NCBI GenBank assembly: GCA_016870915.1
Contig: VFZY01000026.1
Span: 1-43,497 of the forward strand
Direction of reading: 5' to 3'
Length of the DNA stretch: 43,497 nucleotides
From: Acidobacteriota bacterium
Lineage (GTDB): Bacteria; Acidobacteriota; Terriglobia; Bryobacterales; Bryobacteraceae
A program made the position numbers and the translations under genes. Of this stretch, positions 13,552-32,271 are shown one piece after another. The notes under the pieces are model-generated. The model ran no database searches and had not been told where the DNA came from. It was given only the letters and a program-made list of their open reading frames with translations. Position 1 is the stretch's first letter, and each line of letters starts with the position of its first letter.

Positions 13552-14466
13552 ATGAAGAGCGGCGTTTCAGGGATGTCCCAGGCCAAGCAGGCTGTTCTGG
13601 AGGCGACAGTCGCCGAACTGAAGAACGCGTCGAACGTGGTGGCCGTGGTCCTGGGCGGTTCGCATGCGCGCGGCGTGGCACGGGAGTCATCCGACCTCGA
13701 TCTCGGGATCTACTACCGGGAAGAGGCGCCGCTGGTGATTGAAGAGATCCGGGCAGCGGCCGCCTCGATCTCGGCGGCTGGGACGGTTCCAATGGTCACG
13801 GATTTGTACGGCTGGGGCCCGTGGGTGAATGGCGGAGCCTGGATCCAGACGCCCGCCACCAAGGTCGACTTTGTGTACCGCAACCTCGACCAGGTGGATT
13901 CCGTGATTGAAGAAGGCCTTCGCGGAATCTGGCGCCATGACTATGACCAACAGCCTCCATTCGGGTTCCGGAGCGTTACTTACTTCGCCGAAACTCACTT
14001 CTGTGTGCCGCTGCATGACCCTTGGGGTGAGATCGCCAGACTGAAGCAGGCCGTGGCGGTGTACCCCGGGCCGCTGAAGGCGCGGATTCTTCAGGACGGC
14101 TTGTGGGGCGCCGAGTTCAGCCTGTGGTCCGGCGAAGGGTTCGCTGCCTCGGGCGATGTATTGAACACCGCCGGCTCGCTTGCGCGCGCTTCCCATTACC
14201 TGACGCACGCGATGTTCGCGCTGAACGAAGAGTACCTGCTGAACGACAAGCATGTGAACCGGTTGCTGAATGGATTCTCCAAGGTTCCACACGGGTGCGC
14301 GGAGCGCCTGGCGGAGATTCTGTCACGGCCGGGGCGGAGTCCGGAAGAACTGCGGGCTGCGCTCGATTCGCTGCGGGGTCTGTGGGCGGAGGCGGTGGAG
14401 TTGACAGCGGGAGCCTACCAGGCGCGGTTTAACCTGGCGGCTGCCCGGAACAAGGCAGGGGACTAA
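13552..14466 (+). CDS. Nucleotidyltransferase domain protein
   Basis: A 304-residue protein with an N-terminal pol-beta-type nucleotidyltransferase domain: GGSHARG at 35-41 and carboxylates Asp48 and Asp50 in SSDLDLGIYY. A later VDF (near residue 105) may supply the third carboxylate. The C-terminal half is helical and resembles the substrate domain of aminoglycoside or aminocyclitol adenylyltransferases and related DUF4037-like proteins. The target is unknown. The ATG at 13552 has AGAGGA about 11 bases upstream; an ATG seven codons later is possible. Divergent from ispE, no operon partner. Confidence 0.75.
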   Translation: MKSGVSGMSQAKQAVLEATVAELKNASNVVAVVLGGSHARGVARESSDLDLGIYYREEAPLVIEEIRAAAASISAAGTVPMVTDLYGWGPWVNGGAWIQTPATKVDFVYRNLDQVDSVIEEGLRGIWRHDYDQQPPFGFRSVTYFAETHFCVPLHDPWGEIARLKQAVAVYPGPLKARILQDGLWGAEFSLWSGEGFAASGDVLNTAGSLARASHYLTHAMFALNEEYLLNDKHVNRLLNGFSKVPHGCAERLAEILSRPGRSPEELRAALDSLRGLWAEAVELTAGAYQARFNLAAARNKAGD

Positions 14467-14548
14467 GGTTTCTTCCGGACCCGTTTCGAGCGATTCGCTG
14501 ATACTGCCGGCCTTACATTCAGGTTTTAATCAGGGAGAGGAGATGCAC

Positions 14549-14737
14549 ATGGCACATGCGCTACGGCTCGCCCTGATCCGCCTGGTTCAGGATCGACGAG
14601 GGCAGGATCTGATCGAGTACGCGATGCTCGCGGGTTTTGTGACCTTGGCGGCTTCGGCCGCCGTACCGGGGTTGGGTCCGCCCATTCAGGCGCTATTCGA
14701 CAAGGTGACGGACGTGTTTGCGACTGTGGGAAGCTAA
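14549..14737 (+). CDS. Flp family type IVb pilin
   Basis: A 62-residue pilin subunit. After a short basic leader (LVQDRRG) comes QDLIEYAMLAGFVTLAASAAV, the hydrophobic assembly helix with the Glu-Tyr pair typical of Flp/Fap pilins. A TadV-type prepilin peptidase would be expected to cut after the Gly. The start at 14549 has GAGGAG six bases upstream; the ATG at 14543 is an alternative. No tad/cpa assembly genes are in the window, so it is an isolated pilin gene. Confidence 0.85.
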   Translation: MAHALRLALIRLVQDRRGQDLIEYAMLAGFVTLAASAAVPGLGPPIQALFDKVTDVFATVGS

Positions 14738-14769
14738 CCGGGTTCCCGGCCCTGCTGTAGTATGGGGGC

Positions 14770-15372
14770 ATGCACGCGATCCTGTTCGTGGTTGCGCTGG
14801 GGGCTCAGCAGCACAAGGGCCCTCTGCACCATAGCGCCGAAGAGTACGCCAGGCGGCTGAACGATCCGGCTCGGGACGGCTGGCAGAAGCCCGCGGAGGT
14901 GGTGGCCGCGCTGGCCTTGGCCCCAGGTTCCGTCGTTGCCGATGTCGGCGCCGGAACAGGATACTTCTCGCGCCGGCTGGCGCATCATGCCGGCCATGTG
15001 CTGGCCGTGGACATCGACCCGAAGCTTCTCAAAATGGCCGCCGAGGCGGCACCGTCCAATCTGCGGACTGTGCTTGCCGGGCCGGACGATCCGAAACTGG
15101 AAGCCGGCTCGGTGGATGTCGTGTTCTTCTGTAATGTCGTACACCACATTGACGGGAGACCGGCTTACTACGCCAAGATCCGGCGGGCGCTCAAGCCCGG
15201 CGGACGCGTGGTAGTAATCGATTTTCAGAAGACATCCAGGATGGGTCCTGCCGCGGAGTTGAAGATCGCCCGGGACGCGATGGAGGCCGAGTGGACGGCC
15301 GCCGGCTTCACGCTCTCGGCCGAGCACCGTTTTCTGCCCGAACAGTACTTTCTGGAGTTTCGACCCCGCTAG
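14770..15372 (+). CDS. Class I SAM-dependent methyltransferase, possibly exported
   Basis: A 200-residue Rossmann methyltransferase. Motif I VVADVGAGTGYFSRRL (55-70) binds S-adenosylmethionine, DIDPKLL gives the acidic ribose-binding position, and VFFCNVVHHID with LKPGGRVVVIDF are later motifs. The first 12 residues (MHAILFVVALGA) look like a short signal peptide or anchor, which is unusual for a SAM enzyme. The substrate is unknown. It sits 32 nt after the pilin gene, but coupling is uncertain. Confidence 0.82.
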   Translation: MHAILFVVALGAQQHKGPLHHSAEEYARRLNDPARDGWQKPAEVVAALALAPGSVVADVGAGTGYFSRRLAHHAGHVLAVDIDPKLLKMAAEAAPSNLRTVLAGPDDPKLEAGSVDVVFFCNVVHHIDGRPAYYAKIRRALKPGGRVVVIDFQKTSRMGPAAELKIARDAMEAEWTAAGFTLSAEHRFLPEQYFLEFRPR

Positions 15373-15420
15373 CGCGGGTGGCGGGTCACCAAGAAGCGGA
15401 CAGCGGCCGATAAGCCGGTC

Positions 15421-17442
15421 ATGGTGTTCCGGCTCCGCTCCTTAGCTATCCCGCTGGTAAGTGTTGCCGTGCTCTCCGGTCAGGAGAAAGACCTCGCCGC
15501 ACTCAGCCTTGAAGAGTTGATGAACGTCGAGGTTGTGTCCGTGCGGAAGGGCAGTTCGAAGCTTTCCCGCACGCCGGCTGCCGTTCATGTCGTGACGCAG
15601 GACGATATCCGCCGCAGCGGTGCGCTCAACCTGATGGATGCCATACGTTTGGCGCCGGGTGTCCATGTGGCGCGTATGAATGGCACATCCTGGGCCGTGG
15701 GCATGCGGGGGTTCAACAACTTTGCCAGCAACAAGCTGCTGGTGATGGTCGACGGACGCACGGTGTACAACCCGCTGCTCTCCGGCGTCGTATGGAACCA
15801 CCAGATGGTGATGCTGGAGGACATCGAAAGAATCGAGGTGATTCGCGGTCCGGCCGGAACCATGTGGGGCGCCAATGCTGTGTGCGGTGTGATCAACGTG
15901 GTCACCAAGCGGGCGCAGGATACCGTGGGGGCGCTGGCCTCGTTCTCAGCGGGTTCGATGGACCCGGGACGCGGCAGCCTGCGCTACGGCGCCAAGTGGG
16001 GGACGAACAAGGCCTGGCGGACCTGGCTTCACCAGGAAGTGAACGGGCCCGGGCGCGTGCCCGCGAGCGAACCTCGTCCCGGGAATTGGCTGGCGCGGCG
16101 AAGCGGCGCCCGGTTGGACTGGCAGCCGACGGAACAGGATCAGGTGGAGGTGCAGGGCGAGATTACGGCCTTGGACGCCGGAGTCAATCTGATTCGTTAT
16201 CCACGGCCCGGCCTGCGGCAGGTGGAGAATCGCGAGACCGGGGGCCAAGCCGGCTTCGCACTTGCGAAATGGGCACACACGAATCGCCGGGGCGACACCA
16301 CCCAGGTGCAGACGTTCGCCGATGTTCAGCGAATGGGGTTCGGGTTGTTTGACCTGGATGCGCGGACCGCGGACGTCGACGTTCAGCACTCCGTTTCCCT
16401 GGGTGAGCAGCACGGCCTGCTGGTGGGTGGCGGCTTCCGGGCCAATGCTATTCGGGCGGCGGGCACCAGGGATCTGTTTTTCGATCCCGCGAATCGAACC
16501 TATCTGGTGGCCAACGGGTTCGTGCAGTACGAATGGCAGGCGGTGCCCCAGATACTCGTGCTGACAACGGGTGTGAAGCTGGAGCGGTACACCCTTGCGG
16601 GCAATGCGCTGCAGCCTTCCGTGCGCGTCATGTTCACGCCGACGTCCCGCCAGGGATACTGGGCGGCGTGGTCCGGTGCGGTGCGAGCGCCCGCTCACAC
16701 GGACTACGCCCTGCGCTATCTTCTGGGCGGGCCGGCCACAGGGGGCCTGCTCAGCACCGTCAGCGGCAATCCCTCAATCCGCCCGGAACGAATGCGGGCG
16801 TTGGAAGTTGGCGGCCGCTGGCAGATGAACCGGCGGTCCTTGATAGAAGTGGCGTTGTTCCATAACCGGTATGACCGGTTGAACGGCGCCTACCAGGCGC
16901 CTTTTCCGCTGGACCGGGAGTCCGTGTTTCGCATGATCATGAGCGGCGCGCTTGGGAATCCGTCCGCGCTGAGCCCGATTCCGCTGGTTCAGGTGAACGG
17001 CATGACGGGCACGGCGCGGGGCGGCGAGGTCTCGGTGCACTATGACCTATCCTCGCGGTGGCGGGTGTCGGGGTCCTACGGCGGAGCCTTCTTGAAGACC
17101 GGTCTTGCGAAGGGTATCGACCGGCGCCGGCTGACGGACCTTCAAACGTACTACCCCGACCATCAGTGGCAGGTTCGTTCCTTTTCCGACCTGGGCCGGC
17201 GGTGGTCCCTGGATGTGGAGATCGCCCGGGTTGGACACATCCGCCACGCGGGCCAACTGGTGGTGCCGGGGTTCACGCGGGCCGATCTTCGCATTGAGCG
17301 GAAGCTTGGCGCCCATACCAGCCTGATCGCCAACGGCGCCAATCTGCTGAGGCCCTGGCAGTTCGAGTATCCGGGCGAAACGCTCTACACCGGCGGACTG
17401 ATTGGCCGCTCTCTCTCGATTGGTGTTCGCTGGGAACGCTAG
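15421..17442 (+). CDS. TonB-dependent receptor
   Basis: A 673-residue outer-membrane receptor. A short signal peptide ends near residue 20. A linker (LSLEELMNVEVVSV) is followed by the plug domain (about 45-165: RTPAAVHVVTQDDIRRSGALNLMDAIRLAPGV is its first part, then VMVDGRTVYNPL and IERIEVIRGPAGTMWGANAVCGVINVVTK). The rest is a 22-strand-type barrel ending in the aromatic/arginine strand SLSIGVRWER. The LSLEELMNIEV-type N-terminus is typical of receptors found beside YfiR-family genes. The ligand is unknown. Its stop overlaps the next start by 1 nt; it heads the operon to 23188. Confidence 0.93.
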   Translation: MVFRLRSLAIPLVSVAVLSGQEKDLAALSLEELMNVEVVSVRKGSSKLSRTPAAVHVVTQDDIRRSGALNLMDAIRLAPGVHVARMNGTSWAVGMRGFNNFASNKLLVMVDGRTVYNPLLSGVVWNHQMVMLEDIERIEVIRGPAGTMWGANAVCGVINVVTKRAQDTVGALASFSAGSMDPGRGSLRYGAKWGTNKAWRTWLHQEVNGPGRVPASEPRPGNWLARRSGARLDWQPTEQDQVEVQGEITALDAGVNLIRYPRPGLRQVENRETGGQAGFALAKWAHTNRRGDTTQVQTFADVQRMGFGLFDLDARTADVDVQHSVSLGEQHGLLVGGGFRANAIRAAGTRDLFFDPANRTYLVANGFVQYEWQAVPQILVLTTGVKLERYTLAGNALQPSVRVMFTPTSRQGYWAAWSGAVRAPAHTDYALRYLLGGPATGGLLSTVSGNPSIRPERMRALEVGGRWQMNRRSLIEVALFHNRYDRLNGAYQAPFPLDRESVFRMIMSGALGNPSALSPIPLVQVNGMTGTARGGEVSVHYDLSSRWRVSGSYGGAFLKTGLAKGIDRRRLTDLQTYYPDHQWQVRSFSDLGRRWSLDVEIARVGHIRHAGQLVVPGFTRADLRIERKLGAHTSLIANGANLLRPWQFEYPGETLYTGGLIGRSLSIGVRWER

Positions 17443-18026
17443 TGCTGTTTTCAGGTTCACATCGGCCGGTCCTGGGACCGGCTCTTGGGGCACGCTCCCT
17501 GGCGGGCGCGCTGGCCTTGGTGTGCTCCGCCGGGCTGTTGCCTGGACAGTCTTCGAGGGCCACGGACGAGCAGGTGCGTCCGGTGTTCCTCTATCAGCTG
17601 GCGCAGTACGTGAATTGGCCGGCGGAGAAGGCTGGGGTTCCGCTTCGATTCTGCATCCTGGACGACCCGGATCTGGTTGAGTCTCTCGAAGCCGTCACCC
17701 GAGGGAAGAGCATTCAGGGCCGGCCCGTTCAGGTGGCGCCTGTCCGTGATCTTGACCATTTCCAAGGTTGTGATGTCGGCTTCACGGCAACGGCAAAGCC
17801 GAAACGCTTGCAGGAGTTCTTCGCCAGGTGGACCTACCCGCCGGTGCTGTTGGCCGGCGAACTGAAGGGCTTCGCCGAGGCCGGCGGCATGGTGAATCTG
17901 CGCATCGAGAGCGGACGCGTTGCCTTCGACGTCAACATTGACATTTTGCAGAGGGCCGGACTTTCAGTGCGGTCTCAGCTTCTCCGGCTGGCAAAGATTG
18001 TTCCCACGGGGAAGGTGTCTAAATGA
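17442..18026 (+). CDS. YfiR family (DUF4154) periplasmic protein
   Basis: A 194-residue exported protein beginning at a GTG that overlaps the receptor stop. A signal peptide (about 1-36) is followed by [12 protein letters not shown], the DUF4154 hallmark. The strong C-terminal signature [20 protein letters not shown] ends with [10 protein letters not shown]. YfiR of Pseudomonas binds the periplasmic CHASE8 domain of the cyclase YfiN and represses it. Here the next gene is a CHASE8 histidine kinase, so YfiR probably controls that kinase. Cys71 and Cys110 are present but the later Cys pair described for Pseudomonas YfiR is absent. ATGA overlap with the kinase gene. Confidence 0.9.
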
Positions 18027-20365
18027 CGTGGTTCCGGAACCTTCCCCTGCAGACCCGACTTCTGACCGCCATCGGGTTGATCAATGCCGTGACCGTGATT
18101 CTGGCCGCGGCCGCCTTCGTCACACTGGAATACTCCGAGGCTCGCACCGCCATGGCGGAGGACCTGGACGGCATTGCCCGCCTGGTCGGAGGCAACTCCA
18201 CCGCCGCCCTGAGTTTTGGCGACGCTGTGACGATCAGGGAAAACCTGGAATCCCTCAAGACCGACCAGAGAATTCAAGCAGCGGCCATCTTCAACAGCGT
18301 CGGAGAACTGGTCGACGCCTACCCTTCCGGCGCCCGGGTTCCGCAACGGCTTCTGTCGCTTGCACGAGCCCCGGACGGAACCTACTTTGATGACGATGGA
18401 GTGGTCGCGATTCGCGACGTTCGAATCGACGGGAACAAGCTGGGGCGCGTGGCGGTGTACGCCGGCCTGGCGCAGCTTCGAAAGCGTCTGTGGCGCTATG
18501 CCTGGGCGGCGATGTTTGTTCTGGTCCTGTCGCTCATGATCGGGTTCGCCATCTCAACCCGGATTGCCGGTGCGGTCATCCGGCCCGTGCTGGCGCTGGC
18601 GGAGGCCTCGCGCCGCATTACTCATACGGCGGACTATTCACAACGCATTGCACCGGCCGGCGATGACGAAGTGGGCGAACTTACCGAGTGCTTCAATGGG
18701 ATGCTCGACGCGTTGCGGGAACGTGACCGGCAGCTATCCGAGCATCGCGATCATCTGGAAGAAAAAGTGGCGGCCAGGACCATTGAACTCGAGGCCGCGC
18801 GCGCCAAGGCGGAAGAGTCGGCACGGCTCAAGAGTGAATTCCTCGCCAATATGAGCCATGAGATCCGGACGCCGATGAACGGTGTCATCGGGCTCACCAC
18901 GCTGGCGCTGGATTGTGACCTGCCGCGCGAGGCAAGGGAGCATCTGGAACTGGCGAGTTCTTCCGCTCAAAACCTGCTCACCATCATCAACGACATTCTG
19001 GACTTCTCGAAGATCGAAGCGGGCAAGCTTCAGGTGGAGTCCATTCCATTCCCGCTCGCGGCTACCCTGGCCCGTCTGGCCAAGACGTTTGCCTGGCCCG
19101 CTCAACGCAAGGGCCTGGAACTGATTCTTGACCTGGGGCCCGATCTGCCGGCGAATGTGATGGGTGATCCAACCCGGCTGCAGCAGGTGCTGGCCAATTT
19201 GCTGAGCAATGCCATCAAGTTTACCGGGCAGGGCCAGGTGGAACTGGGCGTGAGCCTGGCGGCCGCACACGGTGAGGTCCCCAGGATCCGGTTCGCCGTG
19301 AAGGATTCAGGCACCGGGATTCCGGCCGAACAGCACAGCCGCATCTTCGAATCGTTCACCCAGGCCGACGGATCCACCACGAGAAAGTTCGGCGGCACGG
19401 GGTTGGGTCTATCGATCGCCAGCCGGCTTGCAGTATTGATGGGCGGCCGCCTGTCGATTGAGAGCCAACCCGGCGAGGGGAGTGTTTTCTGGTTCGAACT
19501 GCCGATGGCGGAGGTTTCGGGGGAGGCGGCAGCGATTCCCGGTTCCGGATCCCTGGAAGGGAAGCGGGTTCTGGTGGTGGACGACCATCCGGCCAATCGG
19601 CGCGTGCTCGATGGGTTTGCGCGCCGTATGGGGATGACTGCCACTCAGGCTGCCGATGCCGCAGAAGCGCTGGAAGTCCTGGCGGCGGGTCTCTACGATC
19701 TGGTGTTGGTCGACTACAGCATGCCTGGAGTGACTGGACTGGAGCTCGCTGAATCGATCCGGTGGCGCCAGTTGCCCATGATCATGCTGACGTCGGTGGA
19801 TCAGGCCGGGGTCGCCGTGCGTGCGCGTGAAGTGGGCGTCGCGCGGTGTCTCACCAAGCCCGTGGCGCCCGATGAACTGCGGGAAGCGGCATTGTACGCG
19901 TTAGGCCAGGCGCTGCAGCCGGAAGCGGTTCCACTTCGGGAGTCAACCAACACCCAGGTGCGGCGTTTGCTGCGCGTTCTGGTGGCTGAGGATAACCTGG
20001 TGAATCAACGCGTGGTGGCCCGCCTGCTCGCGGCGATGGGACACACGGCTACCGTGGTGGAGAATGGCCGTCTGGCAGTGGATGCCGCTGCCTCGCAGGC
20101 CTATGACGTGGTGCTGATGGACTGCCAGATGCCTGAGATGGACGGCTTTGAGGCCACCCGCGCCATCCGCGACGCGGAGAAGCCCCAGAGCGCCCACCTG
20201 CCTATCATCGCGCTTACCGCGAATGCGATGGCCGGCGACCGGGAACGGTGCATGGCCGCGGGCATGGATAACTACCTCGCCAAGCCTATCGATCGCCTTG
20301 AGTTGGCCGCACTGCTTGACGCCGTTGCCAACACCGGAAGCGAGTCTCCCGGCGCCGCATCCTGA
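18023..20365 (+). CDS. CHASE8 hybrid sensor histidine kinase with two receivers
   Basis: A 780-residue membrane kinase. It has TM1 (about 12-34), a periplasmic CHASE8 domain (about 35-150, with [16 protein letters not shown]) and TM2 (about 158-180). A HAMP domain and coiled coil follow, then HisKA with H-box His279 in HEIRTPMN and a HATPase with its N, G1 (DSGTGIP) and G2 (GGTGLGLSI) boxes. Receiver 1 has Asp564 (VDYSMPG) and receiver 2 has Asp700 ([10 protein letters not shown]); both keep the Lys of LTKP or LAKP. No output domain is fused and no Hpt protein is in the window, so the phosphorelay partner is elsewhere. Translationally coupled to the YfiR gene. Confidence 0.94.
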
Positions 20366-20383
20366 TCTGCTACCTTCGTTCGA

Positions 20384-21865
20384 GTGTGCGCGCGGACGAA
20401 TAGCAAGGCAGGGCAACGCGATCAGGAAGACCTGAGCCATTTCGGATACGCCCAGGAACTGTTCCGCAACATGGGCGGGTTTTCGAACTTCGCCATCTCG
20501 TTTTCGATCATCTCCATCCTCACCGGCGCGGTCACGCTCTACGGCTACGGCCTGGAGATGGGAGGCCCGCTGGAGATGGGCGCCGGCTGGCCGATCGCCA
20601 CGCTCTTCACACTGACCGTGGCCGCGAGCATGGCGGAGTTGTGCTCGGCCTATCCCACCTCGGGCGCGCTGTACCACTGGGCCTCGGCGCTGGGCGGACC
20701 AGGCTGGGGCTGGTTCGTCTCCTGGATGAACATCTTCGGCATCTGCGCGGCTCAGGCGGGCATCAACTATAGCTGCGCGCAGTTCATCCTGCCGTTTCTC
20801 GGCCTGGAGTCCAGCCGGACCAATCTGTTTCTGATGTTCTGCCTGATCCTGATGGGGCAGGGCCTGTTCAACCACTGGGGGGTCAGAATCGTCGCGATAC
20901 TCAATGACTTCAGCGTGACGGTGCATATTGCCGGTGTCCTGATCTTTGTCGGGGCCATCGTGTGGCTGGCCCCGCTGCAGCCGGTGGGCTACTTGCTGGA
21001 GCCGGTGAACAGCAACGGGCGCTCGCCATATTGGTGGGCCTTTCTGCTGGGGTTGCTTCAGGCACAGTGGACGTACACGGGGTTCGACGCCTCGGCGCAG
21101 GTGGCCGAGGAGACGCGCGACCCGCGCCGTCACGCTCCCTGGGGCATCGTGCTTTCCGTGGCGATCTCGGGTGTGGTGGGCTTTCTGTTGATCGCGGCGA
21201 TGACTCTGGCTATTCAGGATCTGCCCGCCCTGCTGGCGATGAAGGATGAGGCAGGGAACCCGGTGCCCGCTGCCATCGGCGTGCTGCGCACAGCGCTCGG
21301 CGCGCGTTTCGGCAACGCCTTGGGCGCCATGGCCTCCGTGGCCATGTGGTTCTGCGGGCTTTCGGCGATCACGTCGGGGTCGCGCGCCTTGTATTCACTG
21401 GCGCGCGATGGCGGAGCGCCGGGCGGTGGCCTTCTCGCCCGCGTCAATCCTTCGCGCGGTACGCCGGGCCCCGCCATCTGGACCATCGTGGCGGTCTCCG
21501 CCGCGGCTATGGTGTGGGCCGAAGCGATTCCGGTGGTGACGTCGTTGAGTACCATGGCGCTCTATCTGGCCTATGGGATTCCCGTGGCCCTGGGCTTGCG
21601 CGCGCGCCTGGCCGGCGATGCCTGGCCCTCGGCCGCCGTCTGGAGCCTGGGCCGCTGGGGCTCCGCCGTAAACTGGGTGGCGGTGGTTTACATTGGCAGC
21701 GTCTGCGTGATCCTGACCATGCCGCCGAACGAACTGGCGGGCAAGACGCTGGCCGGCGTGGCGGCAGGGCTGCTGGTGTTGTGGCGCCTGGTGGTGCGTG
21801 GCCGCTTTGCGGGCCCGGCCTGGAGCCGCGCCGGGCACCTCATCCAGGCGCCCCGTGAAGAATAG
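20384..21865 (+). CDS. APC superfamily amino acid/amine permease
   Basis: A 493-residue transporter with about 12 membrane helices. The conserved N-terminal segment GGFSNFAISFSIISILTGAV and AAQAGINYS and GFDASAQVAEETRDPRR motifs belong to the APC/AAT family (GABA- or choline-permease-like). It imports an amino acid or amine by ion coupling; the substrate is not resolved. The GTG start at 20384 lacks a strong ribosome-binding site but lies only 18 nt after the kinase stop. The following glutamine-synthetase-like gene suggests the cargo could be an amine that is glutamylated. Confidence 0.88.
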   Translation: MCARTNSKAGQRDQEDLSHFGYAQELFRNMGGFSNFAISFSIISILTGAVTLYGYGLEMGGPLEMGAGWPIATLFTLTVAASMAELCSAYPTSGALYHWASALGGPGWGWFVSWMNIFGICAAQAGINYSCAQFILPFLGLESSRTNLFLMFCLILMGQGLFNHWGVRIVAILNDFSVTVHIAGVLIFVGAIVWLAPLQPVGYLLEPVNSNGRSPYWWAFLLGLLQAQWTYTGFDASAQVAEETRDPRRHAPWGIVLSVAISGVVGFLLIAAMTLAIQDLPALLAMKDEAGNPVPAAIGVLRTALGARFGNALGAMASVAMWFCGLSAITSGSRALYSLARDGGAPGGGLLARVNPSRGTPGPAIWTIVAVSAAAMVWAEAIPVVTSLSTMALYLAYGIPVALGLRARLAGDAWPSAAVWSLGRWGSAVNWVAVVYIGSVCVILTMPPNELAGKTLAGVAAGLLVLWRLVVRGRFAGPAWSRAGHLIQAPREE

Positions 21866-21874
21866 GAGATGGTG

Positions 21875-23188
21875 ATGGAACGGATCAAGGTTGGCGCGTT
21901 CGATCTGGATGGTGTGCTGCGGGGCAAGTACATCAGCCCGGACAAATTCGCTTCCGCCGCCAAGAGCGGCCTTGGATTCTGCGATGTGATCTTCGGTTGG
22001 GACATCGCCGACGTCCTCTATGAAGGCACGGGCGTTACTCTGACCGGCTGGCACACCGGGTATCCGGATGCGGTGGCCCGGATCGACGAAACCACACGGC
22101 GCGAGATCCCCTGGGAGCCCGCGACCACGTTCTATCTGATGGACCTCTTTCACAAGGACGGGTCACCCATGGAGGTGTCGCCGCGGCAGGTTCTGCGGCA
22201 CACGGTGGCACGGGCCGCAGCGTTGGGCTATGTTCCCTGGATGGGCGCCGAGTATGAGTTCTGGATCTTCCGTGAGACACCGGAGAGCCTGCGCCAGAAG
22301 CACTATCAGGGCCTTACGCCGTTGACGCCGGGTATGTTCGGCTATAGCGTGCTGCGTGCGTCCATGCAGTCCGCCCTGGTGCTGGATCTGATGGATCAGT
22401 TGAACCGGTTTGGCATCGACCTGGAAGGCTTCCACACCGAAACGGGTCCGGGTGTCTATGAAGCCGCCATCGGCGTGGACCTGGCTTTGCGCGCCGCCGA
22501 CAAAGCGGCCCTGTTCAAGACCGCGGTGAAGGAGATCGCCGCCAAGCATGCCGTGATTCCCACATTCATGGCCAAGTGGAATGCCGACCTGCCCGGTTCG
22601 AGCGGCCACATCCACCAGAGCCTGTGGGATCTCGACCGCCAGTGCAATCTGTTCGCGGGCGAAGGCGTGGCGCCGATGTCGCGCGTGATGGCGAGCTACA
22701 TCGCGGGGCTGGTGCGATTCCTGCCGGAGCTGATGGCCATGATCTGCCCAACGGTCAACTCGTACAAGCGCACGGTGCCGGGGACGTGGGCTCCGGTGAA
22801 CGCTACCTGGGGCATCGACAGCCGAACCACGGCCGTGCGGGCGATTCCGGGGGGCGCAAAGTCGACGCGCGTTGAGTTGCGGCTGTCAGGGGCCGACATG
22901 AACGCCTACCTGGCCATGGCCGCCGCCATCGCCGCCGGCGTGGAAGGCGTTCGGCTGGGTCTGGAACCGCCCGAGCCGGTGAACAATGCCTACGCCGCGG
23001 AGAGCGCTCCCGCCCTGCCGCGCAGCCTGGCCGAGGCGTCGCGCGCACTGCGCGGCAGCGAACTGGCCCGGCGCTGGTTTGGCGACGCGTTCGTCGATCA
23101 TTTTGCGGCCACCAGGGACTGGGAAGTTAGGGAGTTCGAACGGGCCGTCACGGATTGGGAGTTGGCGCGCTACTTCGAGTCGATCTAG
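21875..23188 (+). CDS. Glutamine-synthetase family ligase (gamma-glutamyl-amine type)
   Basis: A 437-residue GS-fold enzyme, shorter than housekeeping GlnA. It has the EYEFWIF metal-binding strand, GPGVYEAAI (Glu ligand), SSGHIHQSLWD (His/ATP region), NSYKRTVPGTWAPVN and an arginine-rich substrate loop. Such paralogues join glutamate to amines (PuuA-type gamma-glutamylputrescine synthetases and relatives). The start at 21875 has AGGAG six bases upstream; an ATG at 21869 abuts that site. It follows the permease by 9 nt, supporting uptake and glutamylation of one amine. The adenylylation Tyr of GlnA is not apparent. Confidence 0.88.
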   Translation: MERIKVGAFDLDGVLRGKYISPDKFASAAKSGLGFCDVIFGWDIADVLYEGTGVTLTGWHTGYPDAVARIDETTRREIPWEPATTFYLMDLFHKDGSPMEVSPRQVLRHTVARAAALGYVPWMGAEYEFWIFRETPESLRQKHYQGLTPLTPGMFGYSVLRASMQSALVLDLMDQLNRFGIDLEGFHTETGPGVYEAAIGVDLALRAADKAALFKTAVKEIAAKHAVIPTFMAKWNADLPGSSGHIHQSLWDLDRQCNLFAGEGVAPMSRVMASYIAGLVRFLPELMAMICPTVNSYKRTVPGTWAPVNATWGIDSRTTAVRAIPGGAKSTRVELRLSGADMNAYLAMAAAIAAGVEGVRLGLEPPEPVNNAYAAESAPALPRSLAEASRALRGSELARRWFGDAFVDHFAATRDWEVREFERAVTDWELARYFESI

Positions 23189-23227
23189 CGAGTCGATTTA
23201 GCGAGTCGATTTAGCGAATCGATTTAG
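23177..23227. repeat. Four 13-bp tandem repeats at a gene end
   Basis: Four copies of GAGTCGATTTAGC (the first reads ATC instead of ATT, the last GAA for GAG and lacks the final C). The first copy contains the last codons and the stop of the preceding gene; the other three are intergenic. Confidence 0.85.
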
Positions 23228-23249
23228 TCTCGCCGGGCGCTCCATCCGT

Positions 23250-25607
23250 CTAGTTGTGGCGCAAGGCGACCGCCGGATCGATGCGCGCCGCGCGCCGTGC
23301 GGGCAGGATCAGAGCCGCCGCGGTGCCGATGAAAAGGATAGCAGCCGCGCCAGCGTATGCGGTCCAGTCCGTCGGCTCCACGCTGTACAAGTGGTGGCGG
23401 AGAGAGATCATTACGGGCACAGCGAACGCCAATCCAAGGCCACCGCCTGTGGCCAAAGCAAATAGCGGCTTGCGAACCACGTCGATCAGCACCTGGCGCG
23501 GCTGCGCCCCGACGGCTGTCCGAATCGCGAACTCGCGTACCCGCTGCGACAATCCGAACGCTGTCACCGCGAAAACTCCAATCCCGGCAAGAGCCAGCGC
23601 CAGGCCCGCGAACGTGCCTGCCAGCGCAAGGTTGAAGCGGCGCTCCTCGGTGATCCCCGCGTAGGAGTCCATCATCCACTCCATGCGGCCCACCGGCTGC
23701 ATCCGGTCGAGGTTGGCGACGATGCGCCGAATCGCGGGCCCTAAGGCGGCCACATCACCCGCGGCACGGAGCACCAGCACACTGGAGTTCCAGCGGCCCG
23801 GAACAATCACCTCTGGACGAGGCGCTTTCTCCGGACCGATTTGACGGATGGCTTGAGAAACACCGACGATTTGACAAGACTCCCGGCAGTACGGCCAATC
23901 CGTGGAGGTGATGCCGGTGCCGACGACATCCCCTTTGGGGTGCAGCCGGTGAGCCAGCGTATCGTCCACGATGACGACCCTGGCGTTGCCCAGGGCTACT
24001 TCGGAATCCGTGAAACCGCGTCCTCGGATGATCGGGATACCGAGCGTCGTGAAATAGCCGGCGTCTGCCCAGCGAAAGTCGGCGCCGAGCGCATCGTCCG
24101 CCGCCATGCCCGCTGTCCGGACCCGGCCGCCCATGATGGCCTGCATGGGCAGGTTCGAAGCGGTTCCCACGCTCTGCACGTTCGGCAGAGCGCGGAGACG
24201 CGGCAGAAGGCCGTCGAAGAACTTCACGTCCTTGGCCGCCACTTCAACCGAGAGGACACGCTCCAGCCGCAAGCCGAGGTCGACATCCATCATCTTTCCG
24301 AAGCTCTTGAGCAGAAGGCCCGAAGCGATGAGCAGGATTGCCGTCAGAGAAGCCTCGGAGGCAAGCAGCCAGGCAGCGCCGCGGCTCGGGGTGGCTGGCT
24401 TGACGTTTTCCGGCCTTGCGAGACTCAACGGAGCCAGCCCGAACGCCAGCACGGAAGCCAACGTCAGACACGACGCGAAGAGCAGCACTCTCCAGTCCAC
24501 CGCAACGTCTTCGAGCCGGTGAACCATGCTCGATTGCATGCCAAGAAGCACTCGCGTCGTCCATCGGCTCACGGCCACACCGAGCAGCCCACCGGCAACG
24601 CCGAGAACAGACGCCTCCATCAGCAACTGCCTGGCCACCTGGCCCCGGCTGGCGCCCAGCGCGGCCCGTATGGCGAACTCCCGGCGCCGGCCGGATGCCC
24701 TGGCCAGGAAGAGGTGCCCGATGTTGAAGCACGCAATGAGGAGTACGATGCACGCGGCGGCCAGGAGCACCAGCAGGCTTTGGCGCACCGGTTCGGAGAC
24801 CCGTTCCTCCTGGAGAGGAACCACGTTGATGCTCCACCCCCGGTTTCGCTCCGGGTATTGCCGTGCAAGGTCCTGGCCAAGGGCACCCATCTCCCTGTGC
24901 GCGTTGGGCATCGTGGCGCCCGTCCGGATTCGGCCGGTCACGTACAGGATTCGGTGATGGTTCGATGAACTTGCCCGTTCGTCGGAACTGAAGGCCATCG
25001 GCACCCAAACCTCCGCCGGACGCTGATATCCTCCCCACCGGGGAGGCTCCCTGAACCCCGGTTCGAGGACTCCGATGACCTCGCGCGGCTGGCCGTCAAG
25101 GATCACGCGGCGGCCCACAATGTCCGGCGTTCCCCCGAACCGGCTGCGCCATGCCTGGTCACTCAGGACGGCCACCTGGTCATGGCCCGGAGAATCTTCG
25201 TCCGGACGAAACAGTCTGCCGGTCTGCGCCCGGGCCCCAAGCAACGGGAACAGGTTTCCGGTCGCGCGGAATCCTCGTAAACGCTCGGGAACGTCAGTGC
25301 CCGTGAGTGTGAAGTCGCGGTCCGCGAAGGCGGCGAGTTCCTCGAACGGACCCGGCGTTCTGCTCCATTCCAGATAGTTCTGAACGGACGCCTGTACCTT
25401 CGAACCCGGTATCGGCATCCCAAGCGATGGATTGGATTCCCACACCATGGCCAGCCGCCCGGCGTCCCGGTACCCGAGCGGCCGGAGCAACATGACGTTC
25501 AGCACCGAGAAGACGGAAGCGGTGGCGCCGATGCCGAGAGCCAGGGTCAGGATCACTGCGACAGAGAAGCCGGGTTGACGGCGGATGAACCGAAGAGCCA
25601 ATCGCAT
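23250..25607 (-). CDS. ADOP-type ABC transporter permease
   Basis: A 785-residue permease of the acidobacterial duplicated orphan permease kind. It is a tandem duplication of a MacB periplasmic domain plus FtsX helices: first MacB domain about 45-235, first FtsX block about 275-405, second MacB domain about 445-640 and second FtsX block about 670-785. The start MRLALRFIRRQPGFSVAVILTLALGIGA includes TM1. No ATPase gene is adjacent, as usual for this group. The role is unknown; such proteins could export macrolide-like or peptide molecules or act as signalling subunits. An 88-nt gap separates it from the phosphoesterase. Confidence 0.9.
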   Translation of the reverse strand: MRLALRFIRRQPGFSVAVILTLALGIGATASVFSVLNVMLLRPLGYRDAGRLAMVWESNPSLGMPIPGSKVQASVQNYLEWSRTPGPFEELAAFADRDFTLTGTDVPERLRGFRATGNLFPLLGARAQTGRLFRPDEDSPGHDQVAVLSDQAWRSRFGGTPDIVGRRVILDGQPREVIGVLEPGFREPPRWGGYQRPAEVWVPMAFSSDERASSSNHHRILYVTGRIRTGATMPNAHREMGALGQDLARQYPERNRGWSINVVPLQEERVSEPVRQSLLVLLAAACIVLLIACFNIGHLFLARASGRRREFAIRAALGASRGQVARQLLMEASVLGVAGGLLGVAVSRWTTRVLLGMQSSMVHRLEDVAVDWRVLLFASCLTLASVLAFGLAPLSLARPENVKPATPSRGAAWLLASEASLTAILLIASGLLLKSFGKMMDVDLGLRLERVLSVEVAAKDVKFFDGLLPRLRALPNVQSVGTASNLPMQAIMGGRVRTAGMAADDALGADFRWADAGYFTTLGIPIIRGRGFTDSEVALGNARVVIVDDTLAHRLHPKGDVVGTGITSTDWPYCRESCQIVGVSQAIRQIGPEKAPRPEVIVPGRWNSSVLVLRAAGDVAALGPAIRRIVANLDRMQPVGRMEWMMDSYAGITEERRFNLALAGTFAGLALALAGIGVFAVTAFGLSQRVREFAIRTAVGAQPRQVLIDVVRKPLFALATGGGLGLAFAVPVMISLRHHLYSVEPTDWTAYAGAAAILFIGTAAALILPARRAARIDPAVALRHN

Positions 25608-26644: not shown

Positions 26645-27097
26645 TTATCGGCCGCTTGTGCCGCCCTTCCGGTACAGCAGTTGCTTCACGCCACCCGCCG
26701 TACGCGCACGTTCCTTCCTGAAACCCAGCCTCTCGAGCACCGTGGCCCAAGCCGGATCGGTCGTCGCGAATGCCACAAATTCACGCAGGCCCAATTCCAG
26801 GTGAACGGCCTCGATGGCTGCCTCCGCCATTTCCGCCGCAAATCCCCGGTTGCGTACATCCTGCCGGACTACAGCCACCAACTCATTGCCATCATCACCG
26901 TGGCGGAACCCGGCCACACCCACCAGTTTCGCGTCTTCCTTGGACCGGAATAGCCAAACCCCATACCCGTGCCGCGACCAGTGATTGAGCAGTTCGTCGA
27001 ACGCCTCCGTCACTCCGAGTGCTTCCACCGCAGCGCGATCGCCGGGGAAGGGCGGTGCGCCGTGCAACCGCTCGGTTTCGATATGGTCGAGTGTCAT
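26645..27097 (-). CDS. GNAT family N-acetyltransferase
   Basis: A 150-residue acetyltransferase of the RimJ/RimL-like kind (ETERLHGAPPF start, LVGVAGFRH, ELVAVVRQDVRNRGFAAEM acetyl-CoA loop, ERLGFRKE near the end). The loop reads RNRGFA instead of the usual Q/RxxGxG/A. The substrate is unknown. The ATG overlaps the stop of the PaiB-like gene by 4 nt. Confidence 0.86.
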   Translation of the reverse strand: MTLDHIETERLHGAPPFPGDRAAVEALGVTEAFDELLNHWSRHGYGVWLFRSKEDAKLVGVAGFRHGDDGNELVAVVRQDVRNRGFAAEMAEAAIEAVHLELGLREFVAFATTDPAWATVLERLGFRKERARTAGGVKQLLYRKGGTSGR

Positions 27098-27813
27098 GGC
27101 TTCCGCGCCGCACGGCGGCTCCGCGTGAGGTCAAGCAGGGAGATCTCGGTCTTTGACGCCTCCAAGCCCTTCAGCACGCCCTCCTGGTCGGCTTCGCTGC
27201 GTTCCAGGCCCAGCTTGAACTTCGCCTCCAGGCGGTCAATGGGCATCTCGAACATCACCGCGCCGCGCATCGTGCCGCGTTTGTAACCTTCATCCAGCTT
27301 CGAATAGTCCCACGACGTTCCCGCGTAGGCTTCAAACTTTGCCACCATGCGCTCCAGTGACCGTCCGAATGCGGCGGCGTCTTCCACCAGTTTCGGCTTG
27401 CCGGTGGCATGCACCACAGCGAAGTTCCAGGTGGGAACCGCCTGAGGCGCGGCATACCAGGAGGGCGAGATGTAGTGATGAGGTCCACGGAACACCACCA
27501 CCGCCTCATGATTTCCATCCAGCGCGTCCTTCTGTGGATTGCCACGCGCCAGATGCCCGATGAGCCGCCCGAAACGGCCTTCCCCGCGATCGAGCAGGAT
27601 GGGAATGTGGGTCACGCGGATGGGGGGCGCCGTGGTGAGGCTGACGAAGCCGAAGGCGTCCATGAACTCGTGAATCACCGGCAGTTCGGAGATCAGGTGC
27701 CGCTGCGGAATGTACAGCGATCCCGGTCCATCGCCTTCCGCCGCGTACATCTCCTCGCCCGCGCCGGTGGCCGCCGCCACAGCCAGTGCGTCCAGAAATT
27801 GCCGCCTTTCCAT
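27094..27813 (-). CDS. PaiB-like FMN-binding split-barrel protein
   Basis: A 239-residue member of the FMN-binding negative transcriptional regulator family (PaiB of Bacillus). Landmarks are LYIPQRHL near the start of the domain, VTHIPILLD, RLIGHLARGNPQ, the HHYISPSWY motif and VPTWNF. The first 20 residues (MERRQFLDALAVAAATGAG) look like a Tat signal, unlike typical PaiB that starts near MYIP. If translation instead begins at ATG 27750 this signal is lost. It is 9 nt downstream of the DUF1501 gene and overlaps GNAT; the context suggests a redox or flavin protein rather than a regulator, but this is inference. Confidence 0.85.
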   Translation of the reverse strand: MERRQFLDALAVAAATGAGEEMYAAEGDGPGSLYIPQRHLISELPVIHEFMDAFGFVSLTTAPPIRVTHIPILLDRGEGRFGRLIGHLARGNPQKDALDGNHEAVVVFRGPHHYISPSWYAAPQAVPTWNFAVVHATGKPKLVEDAAAFGRSLERMVAKFEAYAGTSWDYSKLDEGYKRGTMRGAVMFEMPIDRLEAKFKLGLERSEADQEGVLKGLEASKTEISLLDLTRSRRAARKP

Positions 27814-27822
27814 GCTTTCAGG

Positions 27823-29235
27823 CTACGCCAAAATCGCCTTCACGGCGTTTCCATGCACGTCGGTGAGGCGGAAATGGCGGCCCTGAAACTTGAACGTCAG
27901 CTTGGTGTGCTCCACGCCCAGGCAGTGGAGAATGGTGGCGTGAAGGTCGTGCACATGCACCGGATCGCGCACGATGTTGTAGCTGTAATCGTCCGTTTCG
28001 CCCACGGTGAGCCCCGGCTTCACGCCGCCGCCCGCCATCCAGACGGAGAAGCAGCGCGGGTGATGATCGCGTCCGTAGTCGGTGGCCGTAAGGCGCCCCT
28101 GGCAGTAGACCGTGCGCCCAAACTCACCGCCCCAGACCACCAGCGTGTCGTCCAGCATGCCCCGTTCGGCCAGATCGGTCACCAGCGCCGCTGAAGCCTG
28201 ATCAGTTTCCTTGGCTCGCGTTGGAATGCCCTTAGGCAGCCCACCATGATGGTCCCAATCGCGATGGAACAGTTGAATGAAACGAACACCTCGCTCAGCC
28301 AGACGCCGCGCCAGCAGGCAGTTCCCCGCGAAGGTGCCTGGTTTGCGTGCGTCTTCGCCATAGAGTTCGAACGTCCGCGCGGGCTCCTTCGAGATGTCGG
28401 TGAGTTCCGGCACAGAGGTCTGCATCTTGAAAGCCATCTCGTACTGCGCGATGCGGGTCTGGATCTCGGGGTCGCCGTACTCGTCGAGTTTCAGTTGATT
28501 CATGGCGCCCAGCGCGTCCAGATAGTCGCGGCGCGCTTCGGCGCTGAAGCCTTCCGGGTTCTTGAGATACAGAACCGGGTCGCCGACGCTGCGGAACTTC
28601 ACGCCCTGGTAGCGCGTCGGCAGAAAGCCACTGCCCCAAAGCCGGTCATAAAGAGGCTGGCCGCCGCCGCCCTGGCCCGGCGAAATCATCACCACGAAGC
28701 CGGGCAGATCCTTCGATTCGCTGCCCAGGCCATAGGCCAGCCATGCGCCCATCGACGGGCGCCCGGCGATCTGGGAACCAGTCATGAAAAGCGTCACCGC
28801 CGGATCATGGTTGATCGCTTCGGTGTGCATGGACCGGATGAGCGTCAAACGGTCCGCGATGCGCGCGGTATGCGGCAACAGTTCGCTCACCCACGCGCCC
28901 GACTGGCCATGCTGCTTGAAATCGAACTTCGACGGCACCACCGGAAAGCTCAACTGCGTGGCGGACATTCCGGTAAGGCGTTGTCCGCGCCGAATCGAGT
29001 CCGGCAGATCGGTGCCGGCGAACTCCTTCAGACGCGGCTTGGGATCGAAGAGTTCAATCTGCGAGGGCCCGCCCGACTGGAAAAGATAGATCACCCGCTT
29101 GGCTTTGGGTGCATGATGCGGTAGCCCAGCCAGACCCTCGCCATGCAGTTCGCCGCCCAGCAGTGACGCAAGTGCCGGAATGCCCAAGCCCAGGGCTGAT
29201 CGGCCGAAAAAGTGGCGTCGCGTGAGTTCGGTCAT
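27823..29235 (-). CDS. DUF1501 domain protein, Tat-exported
   Basis: A 470-residue alkaline-phosphatase/sulfatase-like protein of the DUF1501 family, abundant in Planctomycetes and Solibacter-type Acidobacteria. A twin-arginine signal (Arg6-Arg7 in TRRHFFGRS) is followed by [18 protein letters not shown], a [10 protein letters not shown] block, [10 protein letters not shown] and [19 protein letters not shown], the conserved family regions. The function is not established; proposed roles involve sulfated or aromatic polymers. The ATG overlaps the stop of the upstream cytochrome gene by 4 nt, giving the DUF1553-DUF1501 pair typical of the group. Confidence 0.92.
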
Positions 29236-32200
29236 TCCTTGGTCACCATCTCATCCAGGTTAAGAATCAGGCTGCACAGGCTGGTCCAGGCCGCCAGTTC
29301 CCTCGCGTCCAACGCGGCATTGCGCGGCGATTCGCCCTGAGCAAGATACGCCATTGCCGCCTTCTCGCTGTCCGCGAAGCGCTGCTTCAATCGAGACAGA
29401 GCGCCTCCCAGGATGCCTCGCTCGGCGGGCGACGGTGGGCGGCTCAGGGCCAGCGTCATGGCAGACGTGAGCCGGGCCGCTTCGTCCTTCGGGCCGGTGG
29501 AAAGCACGCGTTCGGCGAAACGGCGGGACGCTTCCAGAAACGCCACGTCGTTCATCAGGTTCAACGCCTGCAGCGGCGTGTTGGTGCGCGTTTCACGCAC
29601 CGAACAGGTTTCCCGATTGGGTGAATCGAAGGTCACCATGGACGGCGGCGCGATAGTCCGCCGCCAGTACGTGTACAGGCTGCGGCGGTAAAGATCGGCG
29701 CCCTTGCCGTGCTGATAACCGCCGCCGCCGGCCAGTTCCTGCCACAGCCCCGCGGGCTGATAGGGTTTCACCGAAGGCCCGCCAACCGCGGTTTCCAGAA
29801 GCCCGGAAACGGCCAGCGCCTGATCGCGAATCATTTCAGCGGAGAGCCGGATGCGCGGCCCTCGCGCCAACAGGCGGTTGTCCGGGTCGCGCGCCAGCAA
29901 CTCCGCCGGGGCCTTCGAGGATTGCCGGTAGGTCGAACTCATCACGATGGTCTTGAGCAGAGCTTTGACGTTCCAGCCTTTTTCCACGAACTCCACGGCC
30001 AGCCAGTCCAGCAACTCCGGCTGCACCGGCCACTCGCCCTGTGAGCCAAAGTCCTCAATGGTCTTCACCAACCCGATGCCGAACAGCATCTGCCAGAGCC
30101 GGTTCACCATCACACGCGCCGTCAGCGGGTTCTCAGGCGATACGATCCAGCGCGCCAGCGCCAGCCGGTCCGCCTGGGTTCCGCCGGGCAATTGGGTGAA
30201 CGCGGAGGGCACGCCAGGCGTCACCTCGTCACTGGGGGCGTCGTAGGCTCCACGCTTCAGCACGAACGTGTCGCGCCGGTCCTTGCGCTCCTCCATCACC
30301 ATCACCGTGGGAATGGCCGCGAAGTAGCGGTTCCGTTCGGTGCGCGCCTCTTCCAGCCGGCATCGGACGCTGTCCAGTTCCGGTGTCAGCGCGGTATCCA
30401 GAAACGCCATGCGCAGTTTCTCGCTCTGCACCCCCGTGCGCCGCGCCGCGGGAATCCGCGCCAGAGCCTCCAGAGGCTCCTGCGACATGAGCACGTCGAT
30501 TTCGCCAGCCGTCAAGGCCCGGTTGTAGATCCGCGCATCCGCCACCTCGCCCTGATAGTCCAGACCGGCGCCGGCGCCAATGCGGAGTTCGGCTTTATGG
30601 GAAAGAGGCCACAATTGCGAGTCGAACAGGACCTTCGTGGCCACCTCTCGCCCATCCACATAGATTCGAACACCGGATGCCCGCATACCGCCGTCGTAGG
30701 TCACGGCGACGTGTTGCAGTTTGTTCAGTGCAATCGGCTCGGCGGTCTCAATGCGCATGCCCAGGTCGGTCCACCGGAAGATGAAGTGGTAGCGAAGCTT
30801 GCCGTCGATCAGAAACAGCCCGTAGCCACTGCCCTCGAAATAGTCGTCGTAGCGCGTCAAGATCGCGCCGCGCGGTGTGGAGGGCTTGATCCAGGCGGCA
30901 AGCGTGATGGGATCGCGATAGTCGAACTTGGCTGCGTCGGTGCCGTACCGCGTGGGCTTGCCGCCCTCGAAGACCTTGGGGTCGTCCGGCTGCTGGTGGA
31001 ACACCATGCCTTTGGTGATGTTCCACGGCCCGGAGGCGCGCCGTTCCCATCGCTTCTGTTCCCGGGCCACCGCAGCCGCCTTTTTCTCCCAAGCCAGTTC
31101 CGCCGCTCGCAGCGTCCCATCCAGCGCGGTCAGCTTCTCTTCCTGTGCCGGTGTGGGAGCCTTGACCACGGGCGGCTCATTGCCGAAATTCCAGATGAAT
31201 CCCCTCTCCGGCACATTGTTGAAGAAGGCGAAGAGCCGGTAGTAATCCTTCTGTGGCAGCGGGTCGTACTTGTGGTCATGGCAGCGCGCGCACCCCATCG
31301 TCAGCCCCAGAAAAACCGTCGATGTAGTCTCGGCGCGGTCAGCCACGTACTCCACGCGCCACTCTTCATCGATGCTGCCGCCCTCGGCCGTCGTGCGATG
31401 ATTCCGGTTGAAACCGGTGGCGACGCGCTGATCGACAGTGGCGCCTGGCAGCAGGTCGCCAGCCAGTTGCTCCACCGTGAACTGATCGAACGGCATGTTG
31501 CGATGGAACGCCCCAATCACCCAGTCGCGCCAACGCCACATGTCCCGCACGCCATCCGTCTGATAGCCGTTTGTATCGGCGTACCGAGCCGCTTCCAGCC
31601 ATCGGATGGCCATGCGTTCGGCATAGGCAGCGGAACCGAGCAGCCGGTCCACCACCTTCTCATAGGCCCGCGCGGAATCGTCGCGCAGAAACGCGGTTAC
31701 CTCCTCAGGCGCGGCCGGAAGCCCTGTTAAATCCAACGTGACACGCCGGAGAAGTGTGGCCTTGCCCGCCTCGGCGGATGGTGTAAGACCCTCCCGTTCC
31801 AGCCGGGCCAGCACCAGCCGGTCCAACCCATTGCGAGCCCAACTCGCCGCGCGCACCGCCGGCGGCTCCACTCTGCGCGGCGGCAAAAAGGACCAGTGCG
31901 CCTGCCAACGCGCCCCCTGCTCAATCCACTGCCGGACAACTTCGATCTCTCGCGGTCTCAACGCGTCGTGGCCCATGTAGGCGGGCGGCATCCGAAGCGC
32001 CTTGTTCTGCGTCACCAGGCGTACGTACAATTCGCTCTTTGCCGGATCGCCGGGAACGATGGCCTGCTTCCCGCCCGTCAGCGCGATCTTCGCGCCAGCC
32101 TCCTGATCGAATCGCAGCTTGGTCTTGCGCTGCCCCGCGTCCGGCCCGTGACATGTGAAGCAACGGTCGGAAAGGATGGGACGAACGTCCCGGTTGAATT

Positions 32201-32258
32201 CGATGGTCTGCCCGGCGGCCAGGCAGGCCGCCGCCATGAATATCGCAAGCGCCCTCAT
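29232..32258 (-). CDS. PSD1 / planctomycete cytochrome C (DUF1549-LamG-DUF1553)
   Basis: A 1008-residue exported protein. The ATG at 32258 has AAGG six bases upstream and gives a signal peptide of about 16 residues. A haem-binding CFTCH (33-37) starts the planctomycete cytochrome C domain (about 20-100, with MPP near its end). DUF1549 follows (about 140-350, ending with [13 protein letters not shown]). A Laminin-G-3 type jelly-roll lies at about 430-610 and DUF1553 from about 700 ([14 protein letters not shown]) to 960. It probably works outside the cytoplasm with the adjacent DUF1501 protein on polymers or small molecules; the reaction is unknown. It is 13 nt after the alpha/beta hydrolase. 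Confidence 0.92.
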
Positions 32259-32271
32259 TCGAACCTTGATT

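Follow-up and report, generated by a model that had tools for sequence, protein, structure and literature searches.

In the YfiBNR system of Pseudomonas aeruginosa, YfiR is encoded together with the YfiB lipoprotein and with YfiN, which carries a CHASE8 domain, and a set of NCBIfam models (TOL_0244, TOL_0243 and HK_near_YfiR_like; NF053590, NF053591 and NF053592, respectively) describes a receptor, a YfiR-like protein and a histidine kinase that would seem to belong with it; on the metabolic side, a gamma-glutamylethanolamide pathway is described for Streptomyces coelicolor (GlnA4) and for an operon of Phaeobacter sp. MED193. Relatives of both kinds of systems meet in a single plus-strand run of five genes, encoding a TonB-dependent receptor, a YfiR protein, a CHASE8 hybrid histidine kinase, an APC-family permease and a glutamine synthetase (GS)-like ligase, at positions 15421-23188 of contig VFZY01000026.1 from an Acidobacteriota bacterium (GenBank assembly GCA_016870915.1), the analyzed stretch of which is 43,497 nucleotides long and is hereafter referred to as “the window”. 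The comparative evidence points, with a probability of roughly 0.72, to two independent modules lying side by side and joined by a lineage-specific rearrangement, not to one conserved system, and gives no support to a conserved functional unit of five genes.

The evidence that carries this reading comes from loci at which either module is found elsewhere. Matches to the permease, the ligase and the alcohol and aldehyde dehydrogenases (ADH and ALDH) found near them in relatives are present in 0 of 59 other YfiR loci (17 of which have less than 4 kb on one side of YfiR), and a profile search of the DNA read around the ligase in 29 other loci recovered a receptor, YfiR, CHASE8 or kinase in none of them. 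A preliminary description of the window had proposed that the permease-ligase pair hints at the ligand of the sensory genes, a claim that these counts contradict, as the amine link, the would-be clue to the ligand, does not extend beyond the window genome; the five-gene order itself, searched for across other genomes as had been suggested there, was found in none of those examined.

Compared with the NCBIfam set, the window has the same three protein types, with the models matched nearly full length and the genes adjacent and in one direction (an order that, for the set itself, is read from the model names), whereas the scores lie under all three curated cut-offs. As such models exist and the window proteins match them below the cut-offs, the triad is of a described kind, of which the window holds a diverged member; no entry listed for YfiR, CHASE8 and DUF4154 in the open-access library searched described such a triad with a YfiR-linked kinase. 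With YfiBNR, the window shares a YfiR homolog encoded next to an inner-membrane protein with CHASE8, but the CHASE8 domain is fused to HisKA-HATPase-REC-REC instead of GGDEF, the YfiR lacks one of two cysteine pairs, and a TonB-dependent receptor occupies the place of the YfiB lipoprotein (no YfiB OmpA-like lipoprotein was seen among the Pfam-tested neighbours, i.e., the receptor, a methyltransferase, the permease, the ligase and a MacB/FtsX-type protein). With the gamma-glutamylethanolamide pathway, relatives of the permease-ligase pair share a GS-like ligase, alcohol/aldehyde dehydrogenases and a transporter, but they use an iron-type ADH and an APC permease, and the window keeps together only the permease and the ligase.

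The receptor-YfiR-CHASE8 kinase triad

The triad is a real and recurrent module. Its receptor matches the Pfam Plug (4e-23) and TonB barrel (3e-20) models over their gathering cut-offs, with no N-terminal signalling domain among the Pfam matches, and has NF053590 as its best NCBIfam match (464.5 bits, cut-off 645), while the best-scoring PDB structures match it mostly over the plug and indicate no ligand. The YfiR protein, the single one of the window genome, matches DUF4154 (PF13689, YfiR/HmsC-like; 2e-35, over the gathering cut-off), has NF053591 as its best NCBIfam match (105.2 bits, cut-off 125), is similar to the P. aeruginosa YfiR structure PDB 4zhu (phmmer, 1e-8) and begins with a hydrophobic N-terminus, as judged by eye alone. 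Two conserved cysteine pairs, 71-110 and 145-152, are given for P. aeruginosa YfiR (PMC4655355), and alignment to that protein shows Cys71 and Cys110 to be present, and Cys145 and Cys152 to be absent, in the window YfiR. Among the 59 aligned YfiR sequences, the window's included, Cys71 is found in 34 and Cys110 in 57, and Trp59 is found in 58 of the 59 after realignment; the retention of Trp59 and Cys110 indicates that the realigned profile hits are true YfiR proteins.

The kinase has CHASE8 (1e-12), HAMP, HisKA, HATPase_c and two receiver domains, all over the Pfam gathering cut-offs, and keeps the phosphorelay residues H279 (in SHEIRT) and the receiver aspartates D564 and D700, with no Hpt detected by Pfam. 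Its match to NF053592 (“HK_near_YfiR_like”; 162.7 bits, cut-off 194; residues 9-231) is outscored by several general kinase models, and, as NF053592 spans only the N-terminal 223 positions, it is uninformative on the two receivers of the window kinase. When plasmids were searched with the kinase, all of the matches listed began at query residue 148 or later and were without the sensor domain. The triad and its two-receiver kinase architecture, both proposed in the preliminary description, are thus upheld by Pfam, and its observation that neither an Hpt protein nor an output regulator lies within the run was likewise correct.

A search of 101 genomes, that of the window among them, found DUF4154 in 34. 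Forty of the 50 DUF4154 places were read as YfiR-selected loci (the ten left out being the window's own, that of genome G073, partial or weak ones and the second of G049), and 20 more loci were chosen by kinase similarity; the YfiR and kinase profiles behind the locus counts were built partly from wrong-strand readings, and the YfiR hits were later realigned. A CHASE8 protein follows YfiR in all 40 YfiR-selected loci, and YfiR stands ahead of the kinase in 19 of the 20 kinase-selected ones (locus L254 is without YfiR). By tblastn, a receptor lies upstream of YfiR in 33 of the former 40 and in 10 of the latter 20, or in 43 of the 59 loci with YfiR when pooled, some receptors having been missed in these counts via contig ends or divergence from the single query. 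Against NCBIfam, the receptor of L073 and the first 530 residues of the L246 kinase behave like their counterparts in the window. At two loci (L250 and L251), the receptor match sits between YfiR and the CHASE8 kinase.

The CHASE8 protein following YfiR is a histidine kinase in 39 of the 40 YfiR-selected loci and a GGDEF-EAL protein in the remaining one (L067), so that, in the sampled genomes, the input through YfiR and CHASE8 goes in most cases to a histidine kinase and not straight to a cyclase. The preliminary description had set a kinase in the window against the cyclase of known Yfi systems; the kinase form is indeed there, but it is less unusual than this contrast suggests, given its prevalence among relatives and the existence of an NCBIfam entry for it.

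As for the output, ten proteins near YfiR were run against Pfam, of which four are REC-PAS-GGDEF-EAL proteins (L062, L065, L070 and L077), four are CHASE8 kinases, and that of L068 (5516-7603) is without a Pfam match. The tenth, the protein after YfiR in L067 (5962-8984), has a CHASE8-HAMP-PAS-GGDEF-EAL architecture, i.e., a direct form of the same input within the same family, and in L063 a GGDEF-EAL match lies upstream of the receptor, on the same strand, in a receiver-bearing open reading frame (ORF). A linked GGDEF-EAL regulator thus occurs in five of the 40 YfiR-selected loci and a CHASE8-GGDEF-EAL fusion in one of the 40. The GGDEF-EAL regulators beside the kinases of some relatives suggest that cyclic di-GMP (c-di-GMP) may have been kept as the end point of the phosphorelay; c-di-GMP is the best-supported output for this type of triad and, by extension from those relatives, would be the likeliest one for the window, which offers a testable example of how a single sensor is rewired between a direct output and a phosphorelay. 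The window genome has one match to the L062 regulator at E < 1e-60 (contig C188; GGDEF-EAL without a receiver, query 254-698) and three Hpt domains, two of them in one 808-aa frame on contig C5 and one in a 120-aa ORF on contig C7, this free-standing Hpt being a candidate partner of the kinase.

In the proposed mechanism of this first module, the outer-membrane receptor and the periplasmic YfiR would control the inner-membrane CHASE8 hybrid kinase, with YfiR probably restraining the kinase via CHASE8, by analogy with YfiR-YfiN, and with a receptor-side event sequestering or releasing YfiR. Phosphate would then pass from H279 to D564/D700 and further to an Hpt protein and a response regulator encoded elsewhere, the regulator linked in some relatives being a REC-PAS-GGDEF-EAL protein.

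The permease-ligase pair and its cassette

The permease (AA_permease_2, 3e-52) and the ligase (Gln-synt_C, 3e-91) both match Pfam over gathering cut-offs, the former being about 63-71% identical to the cassette permeases of the family and the latter 60-70% identical to its orthologs. Among the top structure matches of the ligase is PDB 5dm3, taken as background, and not used as evidence, to be the Chromohalobacter Csal0679 protein. A passage found for the Chromohalobacter genes next to the ethanolamine-binding protein names Csal0679 only as a putative glutamine synthetase (PMC5299690).

Orthologs of the ligase (about 60% identity or more) are present in 11 of the 101 genomes and in 26 of the 237 family genomes, the window genome belonging to both sets, and their surroundings were read in 29 other genomes (10 + 19 loci), with eight distant ligases (34-37% identity) left out. 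The partners recovered there are an APC permease in 23 loci, an iron-type ADH in 22 and an ALDH in 13 (on the same strand as the ligase in 12), and the permease-ligase pair is part of a separate APC-(ALDH)-GS-iron ADH cassette. Of the best 80 of 380 named ligase relatives, 69 loci gave a match to ADH, 29 to ALDH and 28 to APC (E <= 1e-8), a count that takes in distant matches and those on the opposite strand; many of these loci are cut by contig ends, and several coincide with contigs already counted among the 29. These best 80 of 380 loci gave no receptor and no YfiR by tblastn, with kinase matches in nine; tblastn with one query sequence has little power for YfiR, and the profile search carries more weight.

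No alcohol or aldehyde dehydrogenase gene lies within the five-gene run. The ADH ortholog of the window genome is found on contig C141 (65% identity to that of genome G035, and as much as 71% to others), where neither an APC nor a GS gene adjoins it and where its neighbours, as seen by eye, are a PHP/polymerase-X-like and an aldo/keto-reductase-like gene. The best ALDH match in the genome shares no more than 38% identity with the cassette ALDH. An ADH that stands on C141 without its usual partners shows that the cassette was broken up in the window genome, and the similar identities of the APC, GS and ADH proteins to their best relatives among the loci read (about 70% each) are what a single inherited cassette would give after coming apart. 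The rearrangement in the window lineage would thus have placed the second module behind the first one and left the ADH elsewhere.

The best-scoring models for the ADH are those of 4-hydroxybutyrate dehydrogenase, ErcA, lactaldehyde reductase and choline dehydrogenase, and the cassette ALDH is nearest to betaine-aldehyde dehydrogenase, all of them under cut-offs. One operon of Phaeobacter encodes an ethanolamine gamma-glutamylase, a gamma-glutamylethanolamide dehydrogenase and an aldehyde dehydrogenase (PMC10132767), and the GlnA4 protein of Streptomyces acts as a gamma-glutamylethanolamide synthetase whose gene cluster has a putative ethanolamine permease in some species (PMC6529630). This model ranking and these parallels make an amino alcohol the likeliest substrate, and the cassette probably serves the gamma-glutamylation of an ethanolamine-type amino alcohol, which the permease would import and the ligase would gamma-glutamylate before its oxidation. 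A search of the window genome gave no EutB; across the 101 genomes, the 11 with the ligase ortholog and the 15 with EutB have an overlap of zero.

Linkage of the two modules and the rival explanations

Both the ligase (E <= 1e-120) and the kinase (E <= 1e-150) were found in at least 13 other genomes of the family (a lower bound, as the kinase search scored four candidates per genome), and in 13 out of these 13 the two lie on different contigs. An alternative is that of a true five-gene operon, in which the receptor would import or sense an amine or its carrier, YfiR would relay this to the kinase, and the permease and ligase would use the same amine; it draws on the single strand, the gaps of 18 and 9 nt, a composition of the pair that fits the host genome and a weak tendency of ligase and YfiR to occur in the same genomes. 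Set against it are the uniqueness of the gene order among the genomes examined, the ADH partner of the ligase being unlinked in the window genome, and the differing ORFs behind the kinase in the closest triads (judged by eye from their first residues to be SGNH-hydrolase-like in L246 and creatininase-like in L247, with none found behind the kinase in L073, L076 and L090), which makes this operon unlikely.

Several observations do weigh against two unrelated modules. The absence of the triad from the 29 ligase loci has to be read with nine of them having less than 4 kb on one side, where a neighbour could be missed; the ligase scores over no NCBIfam cut-off, including those of GlnA, type III GS and gamma-glutamylputrescine synthetase; the substrate, the inhibition by YfiR and the output rest on analogy; and the 18-nt gap between kinase and permease has no room for an intergenic promoter, which makes co-transcription plausible. 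In addition, YfiR is present in 8 of the 11 genomes with the ligase vs. 26 of the 90 without it (Fisher p 0.006). Part of this association remains once genome size is taken into account (p 0.017, or 0.031 with the window genome removed), and the raw one is stronger among the 237 family genomes (p 8e-6, 14 genomes with both).

These co-occurrence tests are post hoc, and kinship was handled in them only by leaving out family f3, whose genomes in this sample include one YfiR and lack the ligase; once it is dropped, the adjusted p becomes 0.068. By genus, the 237-genome association amounts to 8 of 13 ligase genera (p 0.005), and eight of the 14 double-positive genomes belong to one genus (g43). 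EutB genomes also have YfiR in 9 of 15 cases (raw p 0.023; adjusted for genome size, 0.22), a trehalase control (E < 1e-50) gives YfiR in 8 of 19 (p 0.27), and genomes with either ligase or EutB, when pooled, have YfiR in 17 of 26 vs. 17 of 75 with neither (adjusted p 0.005; 0.064 without f3). With genome size accounted for, the ligase and the pooled set are the only ones to remain under 0.05, and neither does without f3. The simplest reading of the ligase-YfiR co-occurrence is a shared lifestyle of large soil genomes, with a link of the triad to conditions rich in amino alcohols as a possible alternative. That the triad of this bacterial class might answer phospholipid-derived amino alcohols, e.g., ethanolamine, so that the window would display sensing and use in one operon, is very improbable.

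Co-transcription of the triad and the permease-ligase pair is possible without any shared sensing, the pair having come to lie behind the kinase and being transcribed together with it. Such a read-through operon, given slightly less than even odds, is compatible with the two modules being independent, and it accords with the short gap, the common strand and the intact genes on either side, the kinase aligning with its relatives up to about residue 770-775 of 780; the pair may, on the other hand, have a promoter inside the kinase gene. A scan of 14400-23600 for promoters and terminators showed no excess over shuffles (one promoter-like site vs. a shuffle mean of 1.6; nine terminator-like sites vs. 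a mean of 6.2, sd 2.7) and neither proves nor excludes internal promoters, and Rfam gave no match at gathering scores for an RNA motif that would split the run.

The source genome being a 6.6 Mb draft of 367 contigs, and the gene order being unique among the genomes examined, an assembly chimera joining unrelated genome pieces at about 20370 also has to be considered. The tetranucleotide correlation of the pair (r 0.803) is inside the 5-95% range of its own genome (0.79-0.857), weak evidence against a chimera, as it is also inside the wide range of other genomes (0.615-0.833), and the partnerless ADH on C141 independently shows the cassette break-up, which leaves a chimera highly unlikely and the juxtaposition of two independent modules by rearrangement as the favoured explanation.

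Coordinates and neighbouring features

The five genes, their coordinates and the overlaps and gaps between them, as laid out in the preliminary description, agree with the ORFs, an AGGAG motif and Pfam (Table 1). The first ATG of the ligase ORF is at 21869, and the ATG at 21875 is preceded by AGGAG; as the ortholog alignments also begin at that residue or beside it (query residue 3-5), 21875 is the likely start.

Table 1. Features of the five-gene run and its downstream edge, in window coordinates.
Feature	Positions	Strand	Basis and remarks
TonB-dependent receptor, TOL_0244-like	15421-17442	+	Pfam plug and barrel; best NCBIfam match NF053590
YfiR/HmsC-like periplasmic protein	17442-18026	+	DUF4154; 1-nt overlap with receptor gene
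CHASE8-HAMP-HisKA-HATPase-REC-REC hybrid histidine kinase	18023-20365	+	Pfam, motifs; 4-nt overlap with YfiR gene
APC-family permease, ortholog of APC-(ALDH)-GS-ADH cassette permease	20384-21865	+	AA_permease_2; 18-nt gap after kinase
GS-like gamma-glutamyl-amine ligase	21875-23188 (longest ORF from 21869)	+	Gln-synt_C; ortholog identity; 9-nt gap after permease
13-nt unit, four tandem copies	23176-23227	+	Overlaps ligase gene end

The 13-nt repeat duplicates the last ligase codons and the stop downstream. Further along the window, at 27094-32300 on the minus strand, lie genes for an FMN-binding protein, a DUF1501 protein and a Planctomycete-type cytochrome protein (DUF1549/DUF1553).

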